Below are positions 129 to 59,763 of a DNA stretch of 64,000 bases, piece after piece; within the stretch, counting starts at the first letter, position 1; each line of letters opens with the position of its first letter. Below the pieces are notes generated by a model. It searched no databases, had not been told where the DNA came from, and saw only the letters and a list, made by a program, of their open reading frames with translations. This DNA comes from Leptolyngbya iicbica LK (GTDB lineage: Bacteria; Cyanobacteriota; Cyanobacteriia; Phormidesmidales; Phormidesmidaceae). Location of the stretch: assembly GCF_004212215.1 (NCBI RefSeq), contig NZ_QVFV01000002.1, forward strand, positions 1,482,039 through 1,546,038, in the 5' to 3' direction. The position numbers were made by a program, and so were the translations under genes.

Positions 129-899
129 TTAAGGAGCAGTATTGGCCGCAGTCCCACGCAGCAGATCCATGATTTCGTCGCAATAGTGGTGAAAGGGTTC
201 GGTGCGGCGCACGGCATAGGCGCGGTGTTGGCCCAGGTCGATGCTCACTTCTTCGGCGATGGTACCGGGGCGGGCGGAGAGCACGTAAATCCGTTGGGAG
301 AGAAACACCGCTTCGCTCACATCGTGGGTGATCATCAAAATGCTGATGCCCAGGCGATCCCACAGCTCCAGCAAAAATTCCTGCATACTTTCCTTGGTTT
401 GCACATCCAGTGCGCCAAAGGGTTCGTCCATCAGCAGGATCTTGGGATGGTTCGCCAGGGCCCGGGCGATCGCGACCCGCTGCTTCATGCCGCCGGACAG
501 TTCCTTGGGCAGCGATCGCGAAAACTGCGCCAGCCCCACCACATCCAGATAGCGCGACGCTTCTTCTCGCCGCTGCTTGGCCTCCATCCCCTGGAGCTTT
601 AGCCCAAATTCCACATTCTCCTGCACCGTCATCCAGGGATAGAGGGTGTAGCTCTGGAACACCATGCCGCGATCGGCCCCCGGCCCAATCACCGGCTGCC
701 CATCCACCGTAATCTCTCCCGCCGTTGGCATCTCCAGCCCCGCCACCAGTCGCAACAACGTGGACTTACCGGAACCCGACGCCCCTACCGCACAGACAAA
801 CTCGCCCGTTTCCACATGCATGTTGATGTCTTTGAGCGCGACCAACGGCCCTTGCGGCGTATCGAATTGTTTGTGAACCTTGGCGATTTCGAGGTGCAT
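129..899 (-). CDS. ABC transporter ATP-binding protein (TauB/SsuB type), putative guanidine importer
   Basis: 256-residue ATPase subunit of an importer of the nitrate/sulfonate/taurine class. Visible motifs are Walker A (GASGSGKST), the Q-loop (VFQSYTLYPW), the signature LSGGMKQRVAIARAL, Walker B (ILLMDEPFGALD) and the H-loop (MITHDVSEA). It is the last gene of the minus-strand operon that begins with the guanidine riboswitch, and its partners are the permease and lipoprotein upstream. The family includes nitrate, taurine and cyanate importers, so the substrate is not readable from this protein; guanidine is inferred from the operon. The permease-ATPase gap is unusually long because an opposite-strand S23 gene and repeat arrays lie in it, so translation of this gene is not coupled to the permease. 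Full length for the family. Confidence 0.9.
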   Translation of the reverse strand: MHLEIAKVHKQFDTPQGPLVALKDINMHVETGEFVCAVGASGSGKSTLLRLVAGLEMPTAGEITVDGQPVIGPGADRGMVFQSYTLYPWMTVQENVEFGLKLQGMEAKQRREEASRYLDVVGLAQFSRSLPKELSGGMKQRVAIARALANHPKILLMDEPFGALDVQTKESMQEFLLELWDRLGISILMITHDVSEAVFLSQRIYVLSARPGTIAEEVSIDLGQHRAYAVRRTEPFHHYCDEIMDLLRGTAANTAP

Positions 900-1073
900 G
901 GGTTTGGGGGAGTGTGAGGGTGGCAGGGTAGGTGAGTGGCAGGGTAGCAGGGTGGTTGGGTAGCTGGGTGAAGTAGGTGAGTGGGTGAAGTAGGTGCGGC
1001 GGGTGCGGTAGGTGAGTGGGTGGGGGAGGTGGGAAATCTAGGGGTGGATTGAATTGATTTAGGAGCGGATGCG
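900..1073. repeat. G-rich short-unit tandem array (left arm)
   Basis: On the plus strand this stretch is built of 8- to 9-bp units such as GGTGAAGTA, GGTGAGTG and GGTGCGGTA. Its C-rich counterpart lies at 1488-1571, beyond the S23 gene, so the two form an imperfect inverted repeat around that gene. The last about 30 bp before 1074 are unique sequence with an AGGAG ribosome binding site at 1061-1065. Confidence 0.85.
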
Positions 1074-1487
1074 ATGGGGCAGTTGGTGAGGCGGCATGAG
1101 GATTTGGAGGTTTACCAACTCGCGTTTGATGCGGCGATGCAAATTTTTGAATTGTCGAAGCAATTTCCAGTTGAGGAACGGTATTCGTTGACAGATCAGA
1201 TGCGGCGGTCTTCGCGCTCTGTGTGTGCCAATTTGGCGGAAGCATGGCGGAAGCGCATCTATGAAGCTTCCTTTGTCGCTAAGCTATCTGACTGCACCGC
1301 TGAAGCCGCTGAAACCCAAACCTGGATTGAATTTGCCGTGAAGTGCAAATATCTCGACCAGCAGGTAGGAGATGACCTGAAGCAAACCTACGATCGCATC
1401 ATCCGCACCCTCATCAAGCTCATCCAAAACTCCAAATCCTGGACTCTCTCCCACCCCCTTCACACACGTACAACCTCTTCGAAGTAA
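1074..1487 (+). CDS. Four-helix-bundle protein, S23 (23S rRNA intervening-sequence) family
   Basis: 137-residue protein with the family pattern: HEDLEVYQLAFDAA near the N-terminus, LTDQMRRSSRSVCANLAEA in the middle, and EAAETQTWIEFA before the last helix. S23 proteins are encoded inside hairpin-borne intervening sequences of some 23S rRNAs and occur widely in bacterial genomes; they are related to the Avd accessory protein of diversity-generating retroelements, and their biochemical role is not settled. The start is chosen at an ATG preceded by AGGAG with 8-nt spacing. It lies antisense to the guanidine operon, between the permease and ATPase genes, exactly between a G-rich array (900-1060) and a C-rich array (1488-1571). 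The last residues (SHPLHTRTTSSK) look like read-through into the C-rich arm. Confidence 0.88.
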   Translation: MGQLVRRHEDLEVYQLAFDAAMQIFELSKQFPVEERYSLTDQMRRSSRSVCANLAEAWRKRIYEASFVAKLSDCTAEAAETQTWIEFAVKCKYLDQQVGDDLKQTYDRIIRTLIKLIQNSKSWTLSHPLHTRTTSSK

Positions 1488-1571
1488 CCAGACACCCACT
1501 CCACCTACCCATCACCTCACCCATTCTTCACCCCACCTACCCTTCATCACACCTACCTCACCTACCCGTCC
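1488..1571. repeat. C-rich short-unit tandem array (right arm)
   Basis: C-rich units such as CCACCTACC, CACCTCACC and TCACACCTAC, roughly the reverse complement of the G-rich array at 900-1060. It ends at the stop codon of the permease gene, which lies on the minus strand. Together with the left arm it brackets the S23 gene. Confidence 0.8.
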
Positions 1572-2420
1572 CTACTTCACCGCCCACTTACACGTCATCC
1601 GCATGGCCGCTTGCAGGGACAGATCGAGAATGAACCCGATCAGGCCCAGCACCAGCAAGCAGGCAAAAATATCGTCGGTTTGGAAGAACTTTTGAGAAAT
1701 GGCGATGCGTTTGCCGAGGCCGCTGTCAGCGGCGACGAGTTCGGCGACGATGACCAGGTTCCAAGAGGCGGCCATGTTGACCCGTAAGGTGTCGAAGATG
1801 CTGGGCACCACGTATGGAGTGATGACTTGCATGAGTACCTGACGACGATCGCCCCCCAACGTATAAGTCGTCTCGATCAGTTCCTTGGGCACAAACTTCA
1901 CCGCATCCATAATCATCAGCGTGTTGAAAAACACCGTGCCGATGAAAATCAACGCAATTTTCGGTTCTTCACCCAAGCCGAGGTAAATCACCAATAGGGG
2001 AATGAAGGCCGGGGCGGGCATGTAGCGGACGATGCCGATGAGCGGTTCCAGCAGCGATCGCACACTGCGAAACGCCCCCATACCAATGCCCAAGGGAATC
2101 GCCACCAGCGCGGCCAGCAAAAAGCCCGCCGACACCCGCAAAAAGCTCGCCAGCGTATCGGTGAGCAAATAGCCCTCTTGCCAGAGGCTCACCAGCGACG
2201 CCGCCACCATTCCCGGTGTGGGCAAAAACTTATTGTCAATCCAGCCCGTGCTCGCGATCGCCCACCACAGCAAAAACGGCACCAGCACCGACATCACCAT
2301 CAGCGCCCATTTCAGCCGCTGGGGAATGTCTTCCGCAATGCGCCAAAACACCGTCGGCTTAAGGCTGGGCGCGACGGTAGACGACTCGGAATAGGTCGGT
2401 GGAGAAGACGCGATCGCCAT
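1572..2420 (-). CDS. ABC transporter permease, putative guanidine importer
   Basis: 282-residue inner-membrane permease of the NitT/TauT (binding-protein-dependent transport) class. About six hydrophobic segments are visible, the first at residues 38-55 after a hydrophilic N-terminal tail. The cytoplasmic coupling loop EAA-like motif is present in the region DAVKFVPKELIETTYTLGGDRRQVL. It belongs with the ATPase at 129-899 and the lipoprotein at 2681-3742. The 260-bp gap to the lipoprotein gene is filled by a paired G-rich/C-rich repeat element. Substrate assignment rests only on the riboswitch-controlled operon. Confidence 0.88.
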   Translation of the reverse strand: MAIASSPPTYSESSTVAPSLKPTVFWRIAEDIPQRLKWALMVMSVLVPFLLWWAIASTGWIDNKFLPTPGMVAASLVSLWQEGYLLTDTLASFLRVSAGFLLAALVAIPLGIGMGAFRSVRSLLEPLIGIVRYMPAPAFIPLLVIYLGLGEEPKIALIFIGTVFFNTLMIMDAVKFVPKELIETTYTLGGDRRQVLMQVITPYVVPSIFDTLRVNMAASWNLVIVAELVAADSGLGKRIAISQKFFQTDDIFACLLVLGLIGFILDLSLQAAMRMTCKWAVK

Positions 2421-4505: not shown

Positions 4506-4579
4506 GTAGGGGCGAGGCATTGTGGGAATCACATTTCGGATAATTCCAAAGCATTTTTTCCTCAATGCCTCACCCCTAC
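4506..4579. repeat. Palindromic intergenic element, copy 1
   Basis: Ends are GTAGGGGCGAGGCATTG and CAATGCCTCACCCCTAC, with about 40 bp between. One mismatch (GCG against CAC) separates the arms. It lies between glnT and hypB. Confidence 0.9.
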
Positions 4580-6026: not shown

Positions 6027-6101
6027 GTAGGGGCGAGGCATTCTCGCTTGGACTGCTCTGGCTAAGCCTGAAAAGTTACTACGAGAATGCCTCGCCCCTA
6101 C
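6027..6101. repeat. Palindromic intergenic element, copy 2
   Basis: Perfect 20-bp arms: GTAGGGGCGAGGCATTCTCG at 6027-6046 and its complement ending at 6101, with a 35-bp centre. The right end overlaps the hypA gene: the hypA stop codon TAG is part of the GTAGGGG end. Confidence 0.93.
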
Positions 6102-6478
6102 GGGGTGGGGGAATTGCCCGATCGCTCGGGTTGGGTATATTGCACGCGATCGATTTTGAGTTCGCGACCTGAGCGGATGTCATCGAGGGGCGATCGGCAG
6201 GTGGGGCAGGCGTATTGCAGGCCCATTTCCGGTCGATATTCGGCCTGACAGGGGTGGCAAAAGGCGATCAGCGGCGTTTCTTGAATCACCAGTTCTGCCC
6301 CATCGAGAAAGGTGCCCCGCGTCTGCACCTCAAAGGCAAATTGCAGGCTGGCGGGCTCGACGCAGGTGAACTGGCCCACGGTGAGAAACACACGTTCAAC
6401 CGGGGGGCGTTCTGGCTGCGATTCCCACCATTCCCGCAGGGTGATGATGAGGGCCTTGGTCATGTCGGTTTCGTGCAT
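6098..6478 (-). CDS. hypA: HypA-like nickel metallochaperone for guanidine hydrolase
   Basis: 126-residue HypA/HybF family protein. The start MHE is the conserved Ni-binding N-terminus (His2). The zinc site is formed by two CxxC pairs, C74-HP-C77 and C91-PT-C94. HypA partners HypB in nickel insertion. In this operon the pair flanks glnT and follows the Ni-dependent guanidine hydrolase gene, so its client is most likely that enzyme. The C-terminus (about 18 residues beyond the zinc domain core) is poorly conserved and ends in a stop codon supplied by the palindromic repeat. Confidence 0.92.
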   Translation of the reverse strand: MHETDMTKALIITLREWWESQPERPPVERVFLTVGQFTCVEPASLQFAFEVQTRGTFLDGAELVIQETPLIAFCHPCQAEYRPEMGLQYACPTCRSPLDDIRSGRELKIDRVQYTQPERSGNSPTP

Positions 6479-6509
6479 GGCGATCCTGTATCTGGATGAT
6501 GGGGGCGGC

Positions 6510-6582
6510 GTAGGGGCGAGGCATTCTCGTCAGTCCCATTTGTTATGTCCGAGATGCATCGGCGAGAATGCCTCGCCCCTAC
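6510..6582. repeat. Palindromic intergenic element, copy 3
   Basis: Perfect 20-bp arms (GTAGGGGCGAGGCATTCTCG and its complement) around a 33-bp centre. It fills the gap between the guanidine hydrolase gene and hypA. Confidence 0.93.
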
Positions 6583-7821: not shown

Positions 7822-8005
7822 CAAAACGGAAGCCCGAGAGGGCGATGGAGACTATTCCTCCATCGAACCTCCCGGGCTTTTATCCCGCCGTGTACTGGCA
7901 AAACGTCTGAGGCCTGCTCAGAAATTCCTAAACCAGCCGCTTCTCTCGGACCAGGCACTCAAGCGCCGATAACACCGCTGAGCCGGAACCCTAGAAGCTC
8001 GTAAG
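7822..8005 (-). promoter_or_regulatory. Guanidine-I (ykkC subtype 1) riboswitch with terminator
   Basis: Read on the minus strand, the leader carries the conserved blocks of the ykkC-I class in order: CTAGGGTTCCGG (7994-7983), GGTCCGAGAGAAGCGGC (7952-7936) and ACGGCGGGATAAAAGCCCGG (7891-7872). The last block's GCCCGGGAGG (7877-7868) is complementary to CCTCTCGGGC (7841-7832), which is followed by TTCCGTTTT. That gives a terminator competing with aptamer helix P3: without guanidine the terminator forms, with guanidine transcription runs into gdmH. The terminator U-tract is weak. A second helix, GATGGAG/CTCCATC, sits inside the terminator stem. The first gene starts 44 nt downstream. Confidence 0.96.
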
Positions 8006-9380: not shown

Positions 9381-9450
9381 AGGGGCGAGGCATGCTCGAT
9401 GCCACTTTGTGGGCGAAGACGATGAGTTATTTCGAGCATGCCTCGCCCCT
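9381..9450. repeat. Palindromic intergenic element, copy 4
   Basis: Arms AGGGGCGAGGCATGCTCGA (9381-9399) and its complement (9432-9450). The inner bases read CATGCTCGA instead of CATTCTCG in copies 2 and 3, yet they still pair. Confidence 0.92.
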
Positions 9451-32411: not shown

Positions 32412-32485
32412 GTAGGGGCGAGGCATTTTCGAGACACCATTTGGGACTCGACCGAAACGATTTTTCGAAAATGCCTCGCCCCTAC
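32412..32485. repeat. Palindromic intergenic element, copy 5
   Basis: Arms GTAGGGGCGAGGCATTTTCGA and TCGAAAATGCCTCGCCCCTAC with a 32-bp centre. Inner bases are TTTTCGA, differing from CTCG in copies 2 and 3 but still paired. Confidence 0.93.
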
Positions 32486-41614: not shown

Positions 41615-41688
41615 GTAGGGGCGAGGCATTCTCGCCAGAACATTTTGGTCAAGAACGACATGTAATTTCGAGAATGCCTCGCCCCTAC
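41615..41688. repeat. Palindromic intergenic element, copy 6
   Basis: Arms GTAGGGGCGAGGCATTCTCG and CGAGAATGCCTCGCCCCTAC, with a 34-bp centre including ACATTTTGGTC. It fills the nifEN-nifX gap. Confidence 0.93.
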
Positions 41689-43456: not shown

Positions 43457-43530
43457 GTAGGGGCGAGGCATTTTCGATGAAACATTTGGAATTTGAACGA
43501 AACGTGATTTCGAAAATGCCTCGCCCCTAC
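43457..43530. repeat. Palindromic intergenic element, copy 7
   Basis: Arms GTAGGGGCGAGGCATTTTCGA and a near-complement (TTTCGAAAATGCCTCGCCCC region) ending at 43530. Centre contains ACATTTGGAATTTGAACGAAACG, close to the centre of copy 5. Confidence 0.92.
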
Positions 43531-56535: not shown

Positions 56536-59500
56536 TTAGTATTCATCGACAAATTGGGGATGAACCCAGAGAAATTCGCGCCGCTTATTTTGCACTTTCT
56601 CCAAACCGCCAAAGCCAGGATCTTTATCTTTGAGCAAAGCATGGAGTTCTCGGAGCATGGCACCTTGAGCGCGAATAGCCTCCCCATGCTCAAACTCGGC
56701 TTCATCTCGTTTGGTATGCCAATCGACCGCAATGTTGCTGCTCTTGATGCCAAACTCCAGACTTTTTTGACCGAGATCGAGTTCTTCTTTGATGCCTTGG
56801 TAGGTGCTGTCATCGAGCATGAACTGGGTGGTGGAGGCGGCGACAGGTAAAACCAAGCTCAAAGTCCCGGTCACAAATTTGAAAACGGGAACGGCTTTGG
56901 TAAACCACTCGCGATTGAGTTCTAGTTCATAGACACCTTGCTTGGGGGCGTCTGGATTTAAGACGGGCAGGGGTTTGCGGGAATGTTCACACCAGAGCGT
57001 AAGTCGGAATTTTTCGGCAACCCAGTTGGGGCGATCAAAGAAACCCGGATCAACAGGCTGAAAGCTAAACAACCGAGGGCCTTCTTTGGCTTCATCAATG
57101 AGCATTTGCATGAGGTAAGCGAACTGCTGATCGATACGGCTCATCATTGCCCGCTGCTCTCGCGATAATGCCTGATATCGCTGGTGTTCGCGGCGGTCAA
57201 GCTTTACGAGATCGCTGCGGATGGCATTCTCAAGATCCTTAGCCATATTTTGAAACTGGTCGATCCCAATTACCTGGGAGGGGGCTGGCGTGGTGGGGGC
57301 GTTGTTCAGCAGTTGATCAATGTTTTGCCACTCGTCACAACCGGATACCGTACAGGGGAATTCGGGGCGATTTTTCTTTTTGCTTTCGATCAGCTTTTGC
57401 ACTTCAAAAAGCCCCTGTCCTGGGTTTTCCATGCCGCAGGGCGCAATACAAGGCACCATGATGTTGCAATTCAGCCCTTCCCAAAAGCTCTCGACCAACC
57501 ATTTGACCTCTTCGGTGAGGTAAGAGAGAAAGCGTTCTGGATAGGCGGCGCGGACAGTGATTTTGACATCGTTACCGATGTGTTCCAGCAGGGCGCGACC
57601 GTTGTAGTCGTTATCGAGCATGAGACCCCGCTGCCAATGGACGCTGTCGGGGTAGTTGTTGCGACCCAAAGAATATTTGTGGAGGCGGACGATGAGTTGG
57701 TAAAACAGCCCTTCAGCGTTGGCACTTTGGCCGCGATCGTCTACGATGCGGCAGATTTGGACTTGTTGGCGATCTCCAGCTTCAGGTTCTGCGCCCCAGT
57801 TGGGCAGTTGCTCTGGGCGTTGGTCGGGCACCAATTGGGCAATCAGGTGAGTATTGCTGGCTTCGGGCACAGCGGGATCGAGGACGACTCTGTAGGAAAG
57901 ATCGAAGCGCTCCATCAGCCGCAGAAAGATGGGATGGAGTTCTATGGGATAGCCCGTTTCGCCTTTAAACGGGGGATGGCTCCAGAGTTGGCTGAGATGC
58001 TCAAACTCGACGAGGCCATTGCGATCGCGGGTCAACTCATCATCAAGGACAAAGCTGATGGCTTTGGCGAGCCAGTCGGGTTGCAGGATGACGGTATCCT
58101 TAAGGATTTCGTCGTAGTGGTAGTGGATGAGATAGCCCAGGGTGTGGGACACGCGCACAAACAGTTCAGCGGCAAAGCCTTCGAGTCCGTGTTCTTCACA
58201 GAGGGCGATGACATCGCTGTAGGGCATATAGGGCTTGCCGGAAGCTTCCAGCAATTCGCGAATCTGCTGCCATTTGGTCGGTACTTTGCGACCCATGCCG
58301 GGAAGAGTCGCGGCAACCTCCGCAATGGCCTCTCGCAATTCGGCAATGCCCGTGCCCTCTTTGCTATCGATGTGGTGAAAGCCCAGAACGGTATCGCTAC
58401 CAAACAGGTCAATTAATTCTTGACGATCAATGTCGGGCTGACGTTGACCAGGCCCACCGTGAGTAGCAACCACCAGAATCTTGGCATCCGGCTCTCGATG
58501 CTTAATCAGCGTAATCCACTCTTTGACAAACCCCTGCTGTGGCCCCTCACGGGGCTTCCACACCACCAGATAGACTGCTGTAGAGCTGAAAAAGAGCTGA
58601 TGAGTGGGACGATAAACCCGCTGCCCTCCAAAGTCCCAACCGTTAAGTGTAATTTCTGTTCCGTTGTTTGAAGCGTTGACAATGACAGGCTTAATCTCAA
58701 TACCATGAGTCGTGGGGCGGCCTTCTAACCAGTCATCACCCCGCAATGATCCCAGCAAGCAACTTTTCCCAACCTCGCCCTCCCCAACCAAGATTAACTT
58801 GGCTTCACTCAGTAATACTTCTCCTTCTGCTCTGGCCCTCAAATATTGAGAAATCGCTCTCATGCCTTGTTCGTAAGCTGCTGAGAGATCAGGATTCAGT
58901 GGGTTATGGTCAAGCTCAATTTTAATGAGTAGGGGAATCTGTACTAGAGAAGTAGGTAGATCAATTAAATGATTAGACTCCAATTCGAGACTTTCGAGGT
59001 TTTTTAAATCTCCGAGCCATTCAGGCAAAAATTTGAGTTGGCACTTATAAGCCCAGAGTCTCCTAAGTTGCTTCATATGCCTGACAGAGCTTGGAAGATT
59101 TCCTAAATAATTACCTCCTGCTACGTAACCTAGCCCGAGCTGCCGTAGTTGTTTAAGTGATGAGAAACTATTAGGCAATTTCGATAATTGGTTATCTGTT
59201 AAATTCAGACTTTGTAACTGATTCAAAGCAAAAAATACTTCTGGCAATTCTTTTAATTGATTTCCAGCAAGCCCCATAAACCTTAGCTGGTGTAAGGATC
59301 TTATTGTAAGAGGTATCGTCTCCAATTGATTGTCAGTAAAATCGAGGGAGCGTAATTCAGTCAGATCCCCGATCCATTCAGGCATTTCCGTTAGCTGATT
59401 GCCAGAAAAATAAAGATTCTGCAATTGCCTAAAGTTTTGAATGAATCCCGGCAATTCCGTCAATTGGTTGCCAGAGAAATCAAGTTTTTGCAATTGGGTG

Positions 59501-59763
59501 AGAGTGGCGATCGCCTTAGGCAATTCCGATAATTGGTTACCAGAAAGGTTAAGCGATTGCAATTGGGTGAGAGTGGCGATCACCTCGGGTAATTCCGCCA
59601 ATTGGTTGCCAGAAAGATTCAGCGATTGCAATTGGGTGAGAGTGGCGATCGCCTCGGGTACTTCTGTTAAGCCCAATCCACTGAGATCAAGTTCCGTCGC
59701 ACCCTCCTGACGGGCTGCTTCAATTCGTCGTTCTGCTTCCTGGTAGGCTTCATCTCGCGCCAT
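56536..59763 (-). CDS. Roco-family GTPase: leucine-rich repeats, Roc, COR and a C-terminal extension
   Basis: 1075 residues. LRRs at about 25-290 in 23-residue units (LTQLQSLNLSGNQLAELPEVIAT type). Roc GTPase from about 320: P-loop GEGEVGKS (327-334), switch I TTHGIE (351-356), and WDFGGQ (376-381); the G4 motif is THGG rather than NKxD or TKxD. COR follows to about 800. The last 270 residues carry a coiled-coil stretch, a hydrophobic hairpin (VTGTLSLVLPVAASTTQF) and a charged tail. Bacterial Roco proteins dimerise through COR and cycle on GTP; targets here are unknown. The first LRR units are nearly identical at DNA level (69-bp period, about 59441-59700). Confidence 0.93.
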   Translation of the reverse strand: MARDEAYQEAERRIEAARQEGATELDLSGLGLTEVPEAIATLTQLQSLNLSGNQLAELPEVIATLTQLQSLNLSGNQLSELPKAIATLTQLQKLDFSGNQLTELPGFIQNFRQLQNLYFSGNQLTEMPEWIGDLTELRSLDFTDNQLETIPLTIRSLHQLRFMGLAGNQLKELPEVFFALNQLQSLNLTDNQLSKLPNSFSSLKQLRQLGLGYVAGGNYLGNLPSSVRHMKQLRRLWAYKCQLKFLPEWLGDLKNLESLELESNHLIDLPTSLVQIPLLIKIELDHNPLNPDLSAAYEQGMRAISQYLRARAEGEVLLSEAKLILVGEGEVGKSCLLGSLRGDDWLEGRPTTHGIEIKPVIVNASNNGTEITLNGWDFGGQRVYRPTHQLFFSSTAVYLVVWKPREGPQQGFVKEWITLIKHREPDAKILVVATHGGPGQRQPDIDRQELIDLFGSDTVLGFHHIDSKEGTGIAELREAIAEVAATLPGMGRKVPTKWQQIRELLEASGKPYMPYSDVIALCEEHGLEGFAAELFVRVSHTLGYLIHYHYDEILKDTVILQPDWLAKAISFVLDDELTRDRNGLVEFEHLSQLWSHPPFKGETGYPIELHPIFLRLMERFDLSYRVVLDPAVPEASNTHLIAQLVPDQRPEQLPNWGAEPEAGDRQQVQICRIVDDRGQSANAEGLFYQLIVRLHKYSLGRNNYPDSVHWQRGLMLDNDYNGRALLEHIGNDVKITVRAAYPERFLSYLTEEVKWLVESFWEGLNCNIMVPCIAPCGMENPGQGLFEVQKLIESKKKNRPEFPCTVSGCDEWQNIDQLLNNAPTTPAPSQVIGIDQFQNMAKDLENAIRSDLVKLDRREHQRYQALSREQRAMMSRIDQQFAYLMQMLIDEAKEGPRLFSFQPVDPGFFDRPNWVAEKFRLTLWCEHSRKPLPVLNPDAPKQGVYELELNREWFTKAVPVFKFVTGTLSLVLPVAASTTQFMLDDSTYQGIKEELDLGQKSLEFGIKSSNIAVDWHTKRDEAEFEHGEAIRAQGAMLRELHALLKDKDPGFGGLEKVQNKRREFLWVHPQFVDEY

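Follow-up and report, generated by a model that had tools for sequence, protein, structure and literature searches.

Nucleotides 900–1582 of the window (the whole 64,000-nucleotide stretch of Leptolyngbya iicbica LK contig NZ_QVFV01000002.1 analysed here) probably constitute a single insertion element, a hairpin resembling the intervening sequences (IVSs) of 23S rRNA that resides in messenger RNAs and of which the 23S rRNA IVSs are the known special case. Its S23 gene and the two complementary repeat arrays that flank it (the arms) very likely form one unit: they are present or absent together at a site, lie between or within genes, and are predicted to fold end to end. Across the genomes compared, the arms go with the S23 gene, track its lineage, are absent from most of the empty sites examined, and match each other better within a site than between species.

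Results

An S23 gene enclosed by complementary arrays in a transporter operon

The element lies between two genes of an ABC-transporter operon. The features of the window are as follows.

129–899, minus strand: ABC-transporter ATPase gene of the host operon
900–1035, plus strand: 5' arm, a G-rich tandem array with units of 8 and 17 nt, for example AGGGTAGC and TGGGTGAAGTAGGTGAG (TRF rows 917–1031), which pairs with the 3' arm
1036–1073, plus strand: short leader from the 5' arm to the S23 start codon, in which taggag (by eye) may serve as a ribosome-binding site
1074–1487, plus strand: S23 (four-helix-bundle) gene, 137 amino acids (PF05635, TIGR02436; PDB 2gsc and 2rld are relatives)
1490–1582, plus strand: 3' arm, a C-rich array complementary to the 5' arm (TRF rows 1497–1562; ends set by eye, at about 1582)
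1572–2420, minus strand: ABC-transporter permease gene of the host operon, with its stop codon within the 3' arm
2473–2675, no strand given: paired array lacking an S23 gene, in the operon's next gap (pair score 19)
4506–4553, 6027–6102, 6509–6582, 9381–9450, 32412–32485, 41615–41688 and 43457–43530: places of a REP-like palindrome
7867–8005, minus strand: Guanidine-I riboswitch (Rfam), some kilobases away from the transporter genes around the S23 element
59453–59664: about three copies of a 69-nt repeat, probably coding repeats

The S23 reading frame matched PF05635 at 107 bits (cut-off 33.8) and TIGR02436 at 101.6 (cut-off 24). The local alignment score of its complementary flanks was 25, a value reached in 0.23% of 1,771 control cores drawn from the S23 loci, and RNA folding of 900–1590 predicted that the arms pair with each other around the gene (z -3.17; none of 20 shuffles did as well). 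These data bear out an earlier note on this DNA, which had placed the S23 gene between a G-rich array and its C-rich counterpart. Both arms directly adjoin the neighbouring genes: the 5' arm starts directly after the ATPase start codon (897–899, minus strand), and the permease stop codon (1572–1574) lies inside the 3' arm, whose C-rich array continues past it. The S23 gene is antisense to both operon genes. The source genome has three S23 genes, two with arms (L055 and L061) and one without (L034). An Rfam scan of the window returned the guanidine riboswitch and no rRNA; reading the element as a true 23S IVS fails on location, outside 23S rRNA.

The window also contains several further paired arrays without an S23 gene, as well as a GTAG-tagged REP-like palindrome (GTAGGGGCGAGGCAT...), found in at least six places and belonging to a family distinct from the tandem arrays.

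Arms accompany most single S23 genes

Among the 95 genomes of relatives searched, the window's own included, S23 genes were found in 52. From these, 102 S23 places were fetched (the rest were lower scoring, tandem partners or at contig ends), 99 of them with enough flanking sequence. Arms were called where the complementarity of the flanks was beaten by at most 1 in 100 dinucleotide-preserving shuffles. This was the case at 74 of the 99 testable loci, with arms at 74/89 single S23 genes and at 0/10 tandem S23 pairs. The arm-less tandem pairs (L091, L092, L201, L204, L205, L206, L207, L210, L211 and L217) look like a separate system. For the first 60 loci, 46 of 57 testable cases had flank scores above 16; that score was also exceeded by 12 of the 1,771 control cores and by 18% of 3,192 pairs of mismatched flanks.

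A broad set was then assembled from GTDB representative genomes using a universal-type S23 alignment. In the best 80 of 549 confirmed matches, the same shuffle test found arms at 62 of 79 testable loci, comprising 10/11 cyanobacterial and 52/68 other loci; the non-cyanobacterial armed loci among these 80 include Mesorhizobium, Bosea, Ochrobactrum/Brucella, Planctomycetes, Chloroflexi, Acidobacteria and two archaeal MAGs. Control cores of the broad loci exceeded a score of 16 in 3/125 and 20/788 cases (together 23/913), and outside cyanobacteria 48/68 S23 loci did so versus 20/788 control cores. The same 80 loci (best 80 of 549) gave tRNA matches only and no rRNA. All these counts are of loci and not of independent insertions, many loci sharing one site. 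The earlier proposal of an IVS-like element made up of an S23 gene and short-repeat hairpin arms is thus well supported, far beyond cyanobacteria, and the outcome that was to count against it, most cyanobacterial S23 genes lacking such arrays, is not what the 10/11 cyanobacterial broad loci and the 74/99 loci of relatives display.

Significant arms were lacking at 15/89 single S23 genes in relatives (L034 of the source genome among them) and at 17/79 broad loci (best 80 of 549); about a sixth to a fifth of non-tandem S23 loci have no arms. One S23 locus common to two Trichormus plasmids scored only 12, with no clear arms. In Calothrix brevissima NIES-22, two plasmid loci (L344 and L345) have identical S23 flanks with arms, scoring 29, lie beside a gene of the phage-integrase family and share neighbouring genes, with no junction readable. 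These Calothrix and Trichormus cases were all that a search of plasmids for near-identical filled and empty pairs returned, none giving a junction. Runs of N were seen within or beside the arrays at L178 and L281.

Arms are built from short G-rich units and match within a site

A unit period could be resolved in 57 of 121 arms and was mainly 7 or 14 (42 arms) or 8 or 16 (12 arms); short G-rich tandem units of 7–8 nt are therefore the rule among them, the window's own units being 8 and 17 nt. The G-rich arm was the 5' arm in 114 of 119 loci with a bias, two more loci having none. Because an inverted repeat reads alike on both strands, this bias is a property of the hairpin and not of S23 orientation. 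The orientation of S23 relative to the flanking genes, judged from the longest open frames, was both sense in 21, both antisense in 42, mixed in 14 and unclear in 15 cases among relatives; the corresponding numbers for the broad set (best 80 of 549) were 35, 10, 19 and 1. By eye, the arrays at L348–L368 and L369–L398 frequently start at the upstream gene's stop codon or themselves provide it, as where TAGGCAG follows the last codon.

At eight hand-picked sites, the two arms of one locus were compared with mixed arms of other species from that site; the own arms matched better in 29 of 36 comparisons, and in 10 of 10 at nuoC–nuoD, where the unit varies by species while both arms stay matched. 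In Mesorhizobium, copy number differs freely between arms and between strains.

Gene and arms are present or absent together

We compared orthologous gaps at the window site, kdpA–kdpB, opp and znuB–znuC, among best-matching loci only, with the automatic gap ends being wrong at some loci (L099, L113 and L114). Of 99 gaps, 11 held an S23 gene, and 9 of these 11 had arms by the shuffle test (not L034 and L048). Among the 88 S23-less gaps, 85 did not score as paired, 54 of them being at most 40 nt long and unscored, while 3 of the 34 scored gaps exceeded 16 (L164, L178 and L180). At the window site itself, 0/27 S23-less gaps exceeded 16, with 18 of these at most 40 nt and unscored (L113 through its mis-set end), a result that speaks against the possibility raised at the outset that arrays occupy the permease–ATPase gap independently of the gene. 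The fuller gap sequence of L113 at this site held no paired array. One locus initially grouped with the window site, L074, was set aside, as comparison suggests a paralogous transporter. The SBP–permease gap next to the window site, without S23, scored above 16 in four loci (L110, L116, L118 and L121).

The Mesorhizobium acyl-CoA dehydrogenase–mmsB gap, examined in the 30 best-matching loci, was filled in 8, all 8 with TAGGCAG arms, and was empty and short in the other 22, none of which had arms. At nuoC–nuoD, 12 of 21 Rhizobiales genomes had S23 with arms, 10 of these 12 having been chosen for holding the insertion; the other nine genomes included a one-sided array at L356 and weak S23-like matches somewhere within the loci L355, L361 and L362. 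In a tree built on few columns, with bootstrap values not settled, the nuoC–nuoD S23 genes are spread over several branches, and three separate S23 lineages (L034/L048, L059 and L077/L080) lie between znuB and znuC. Since S23 genes of several lineages occur in one gap, some gaps have been hit more than once, although unit drift and re-insertion at such recurrent gaps are not fully separable in these data. Upstream of znuB, short gap sequences at L141 and L150 keep the start of an S23 gene (by eye) and are likely decayed elements. Across filled and empty sites, a search for an exact junction or target-site duplication fixed none and caught no transposition.

Arm sequence follows S23 relatedness

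When S23 genes at different sites were compared, arm similarity rose with S23 identity (rank correlation 0.44, 0 of 500 permutations as high). Between different genera and different sites, the unit was shared by 81% of 31 pairs at an S23 identity of at least 0.75, and across different sites by 4% of 871 pairs at an identity below 0.5. Within one genome, pairs below 0.5 shared a unit in 8% of 25 cases, which makes it unlikely that each genome simply imposes a unit of its own. As an example, the related S23 genes L076, L077, L080–L082, L087 and L088 lie in different gaps and all have GGATGRGT-type arms. Dinucleotide-shuffled arms gave correlations of 0.19 between genera and 0.44 within a genome, compared with 0.43 and 0.64 for real arms, and seldom scored above 16; base composition explains part of the correlation, not the whole effect. 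At the same site, pairs with S23 identity below 0.3 shared a unit in 25% of 16 cases, and the site thus has some effect on the unit, smaller than that of S23 relatedness. Between sites, the relatedness of the S23 genes is a better guide to arm similarity than the host is.

Some elements lie within host genes

At 14 of 181 loci, the S23 gene was nested: a longer open frame, always in frame +2, ran through it and on for 80 codons or more past each of its ends. Ten of the 14 hosts were scanned: nine look like methyltransferase or restriction genes and one like a defence-type helicase. Their best PADLOC matches were to DrmMI or type IIG-like and type III methyltransferases and, in one archaeal MAG, to an HmaA/DrmD-like helicase; the methyltransferase matches of L276 were weak only. 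When the joined flanks of two such host genes were scanned against families, nothing matched.

Homologues without the insert exist for two of the host genes. In place of the element of L035 and L036, L240 has a linker of eight residues (by eye), and L252 corresponds to L037 without its insert. At the insertion site of L035/L036, L245 holds only array-like sequence and L247 another palindrome (by eye). The S23 protein of L039 is identical to that of L035 at 113 of 120 residues, and its element has the same unit but occupies a second position within the same kind of host gene.

The nested S23 genes are spread over several tree branches. Of 167 non-nested S23 genes, 9 had an open frame +2 and none an open frame +1. 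The invariable +2 phase is thus set by the S23 sequence and does not count as independent evidence. When the synonymous codons of each nested gene were shuffled, frame +2 stayed open in 3 to 25% of trials. A single nested case could thus be chance, and it is the recurrence that constitutes the evidence. Judged from their sequences, methyltransferase and helicase genes that appear to be read through S23 in a second frame would be unusual nested genes in themselves.

Paired arrays without an S23 gene

The earlier note had also regarded S23-less paired arrays as relatives of the element, a link that is only partly supported. In its favour, each arm of the array at 2473–2675 also pairs with an arm of the window S23 element (scores 25 and 23), indicating matching units, and the unit of one S23 lineage is commoner in the genomes that host this lineage. 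Within the family, the unit GTGGATGGGT had a median of 12 pattern matches in 11 hosts of its S23 lineage (assigned by hand from tree and sequence) versus 0 in 46 other genomes (p 0.0005), a difference confounded by kinship. Against it, the unit is missing altogether from two hosts, and some non-hosts contain many copies, with 52 in G049. A second unit, TTATTGG, was present in 3 of the 4 known hosts of its S23 lineage and in 6 of the 95 genomes overall; this pattern reads the same backwards, which leaves its control uninformative.

Discussion

Relation to known elements

Parts of this picture are known already, though apart. In the 23S rRNA IVS of, for example, Coxiella, an S23 reading frame sits in the loop of a hairpin formed by complementary termini, the stem is plain, 28 bp long and located in 23S rRNA helices, it is cut by RNase III, and the S23 structure is pentameric, as described in PMC4990558. 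The window element likewise has an S23 frame in the loop of complementary termini, by sequence and predicted fold, and an insertion where a cut is tolerated. Unlike those IVSs, the S23 elements described here are found in operons or coding genes, and their stems are made up of short tandem repeats. In this respect they are like the G-rich heptamer repeats of Xanthomonas and Nostoc, 7-nt tandem units that often occur as two close, inverted sites, with 70 cases in X. campestris (PMC4692102). The term S23 is absent from that paper; X. campestris, whose heptamer pairs include GGGAATC, also has an S23 protein, XCC0516, with a structure, 2gsc.

REPINs are hairpin-forming inverted repeats found across extragenic space and tied to a flanking gene family, the RAYT tyrosine transposases (PMC3116915). 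The S23 elements share with them the association of hairpin-forming inverted repeats with a gene family, but S23 arms are tandem arrays, and the S23 protein matched no transposase family (only PF05635 and bAvd). Rickettsia palindromic elements, as described in PMC10969869, are inserted in-frame in protein genes, are about 150 bp long and encode a conserved short peptide. Nested S23 elements are also palindromic, in-frame insertions in protein genes, yet they enclose a complete S23 gene, through which the host frame runs in a different phase. Finally, Avd of diversity-generating retroelements is a homologous four-helix-bundle protein (PMC10053308); the window protein falls short of the Avd equivalog NF033474 (22.6 bits, cut-off 80), as it does of bAvd (23.4 bits, cut-off 40). 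What appears to be new is the S23 element with array arms outside rRNA. Hairpin-borne S23 in rRNA, the paired G-rich heptamers of Xanthomonas and the in-frame Rickettsia palindromes were each known, but we did not find their union, or any link of S23 genes to flanking arrays, in the literature searched, which covered few subscription journals or preprints.

A possible mode of residence

The element would consist of an S23 gene, encoding a four-helix bundle distantly homologous to Avd, between inverted arrays of a short unit, typically of 7–8 nt. In a transcript of either strand, the arrays would pair as one long double-stranded stem and leave the S23 frame in its loop, the carrier being an operon mRNA instead of a pre-rRNA. 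Entry would occur where a cut or an additional segment is tolerated, such as at the stop-to-start junctions of operons, or linkers of large proteins where the host frame stays open. By analogy with the S23 IVSs of 23S rRNA, cutting of the stem by an RNase III-type enzyme might limit the harm of an insertion; we put the chances of such hairpin processing in host mRNA at about even. The arms may be kept matched by hairpin-templated correction or by selection.

Avd binds nucleic acid, and from this, its homology with S23 and the pentameric S23 structure we infer that S23 may do so as well. If it does, the protein could help the element to spread or be copied, or could shield its RNA; a role for S23 in spread is a tentative suggestion that we hold to be somewhat doubtful.

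Alternative explanations

One could suppose that the arrays came first, and that S23 genes settle in paired arrays as a safe landing spot, the arms being no part of the element. The S23-less paired arrays of the window fit such a history, as do the 3 of 88 S23-less orthologous gaps that score as paired (L164, L178 and L180) and the four S23-less SBP–permease gaps above 16 (L110, L116, L118 and L121). However, arms follow S23 lineage across sites and genera, unrelated S23 genes of the same genome usually differ in their units, arrays are missing from most S23-less orthologous gaps, and outside cyanobacteria background arrays are rare (20/788 control cores versus 48/68 S23 loci). Lineage tracking and the empty sites make this history very improbable and largely refute it. 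Even less credence is due to the idea that the arms are ordinary terminators or mRNA stabilisers and S23 a stable accessory gene of operons. It would account for gaps that recur in several species (nuoC–nuoD, kdpA–kdpB, opp and znuB–znuC), but S23 genes of one gap come from several branches (znuB–znuC and nuoC–nuoD), gene and arms are both absent in many relatives, and some elements lie within coding frames.

Two further readings concern the origin of the arms. The insertion might bring only a short inverted repeat, from which the arms grow in place, as a by-product, by replication slippage and hairpin-templated correction. The free variation of copy number between arms and strains is as expected from such growth, and so are the species-specific units of nuoC–nuoD, whose arms stay matched. 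Yet close S23 relatives at different sites share a unit, which means that the gene takes at least some of its array with it, and simple slippage does not predict a G-rich 5' arm in 114 of 119 loci. Growth in place as the main source of the arms is, in our judgement, unlikely, with perhaps some chance of being correct. A bolder reading, which we consider less probable again, is that S23 proteins form the coding core of an unrecognised mobile element of bacteria and archaea whose arms arise by templated addition of a short G-rich unit, with S23-less paired arrays as non-autonomous copies and the 23S IVSs as rRNA-resident members. Both flanks would then be extended from their 3' ends, in a telomere-like manner, and the 5' arm would be G-rich on either strand because of this.

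Significance

Under the reading we prefer, that of an IVS-like insertion element made of an S23 gene and its arms, S23 genes and short paired arrays, two puzzles so far treated apart in the literature found, are joined by the present data. The 23S rRNA IVSs would gain a wider family, and at least some paired arrays a source. The reading also predicts a new kind of mRNA segment, one that is folded and perhaps cut out, and the filled and empty Mesorhizobium sites make its excision, processing and mobility directly testable.
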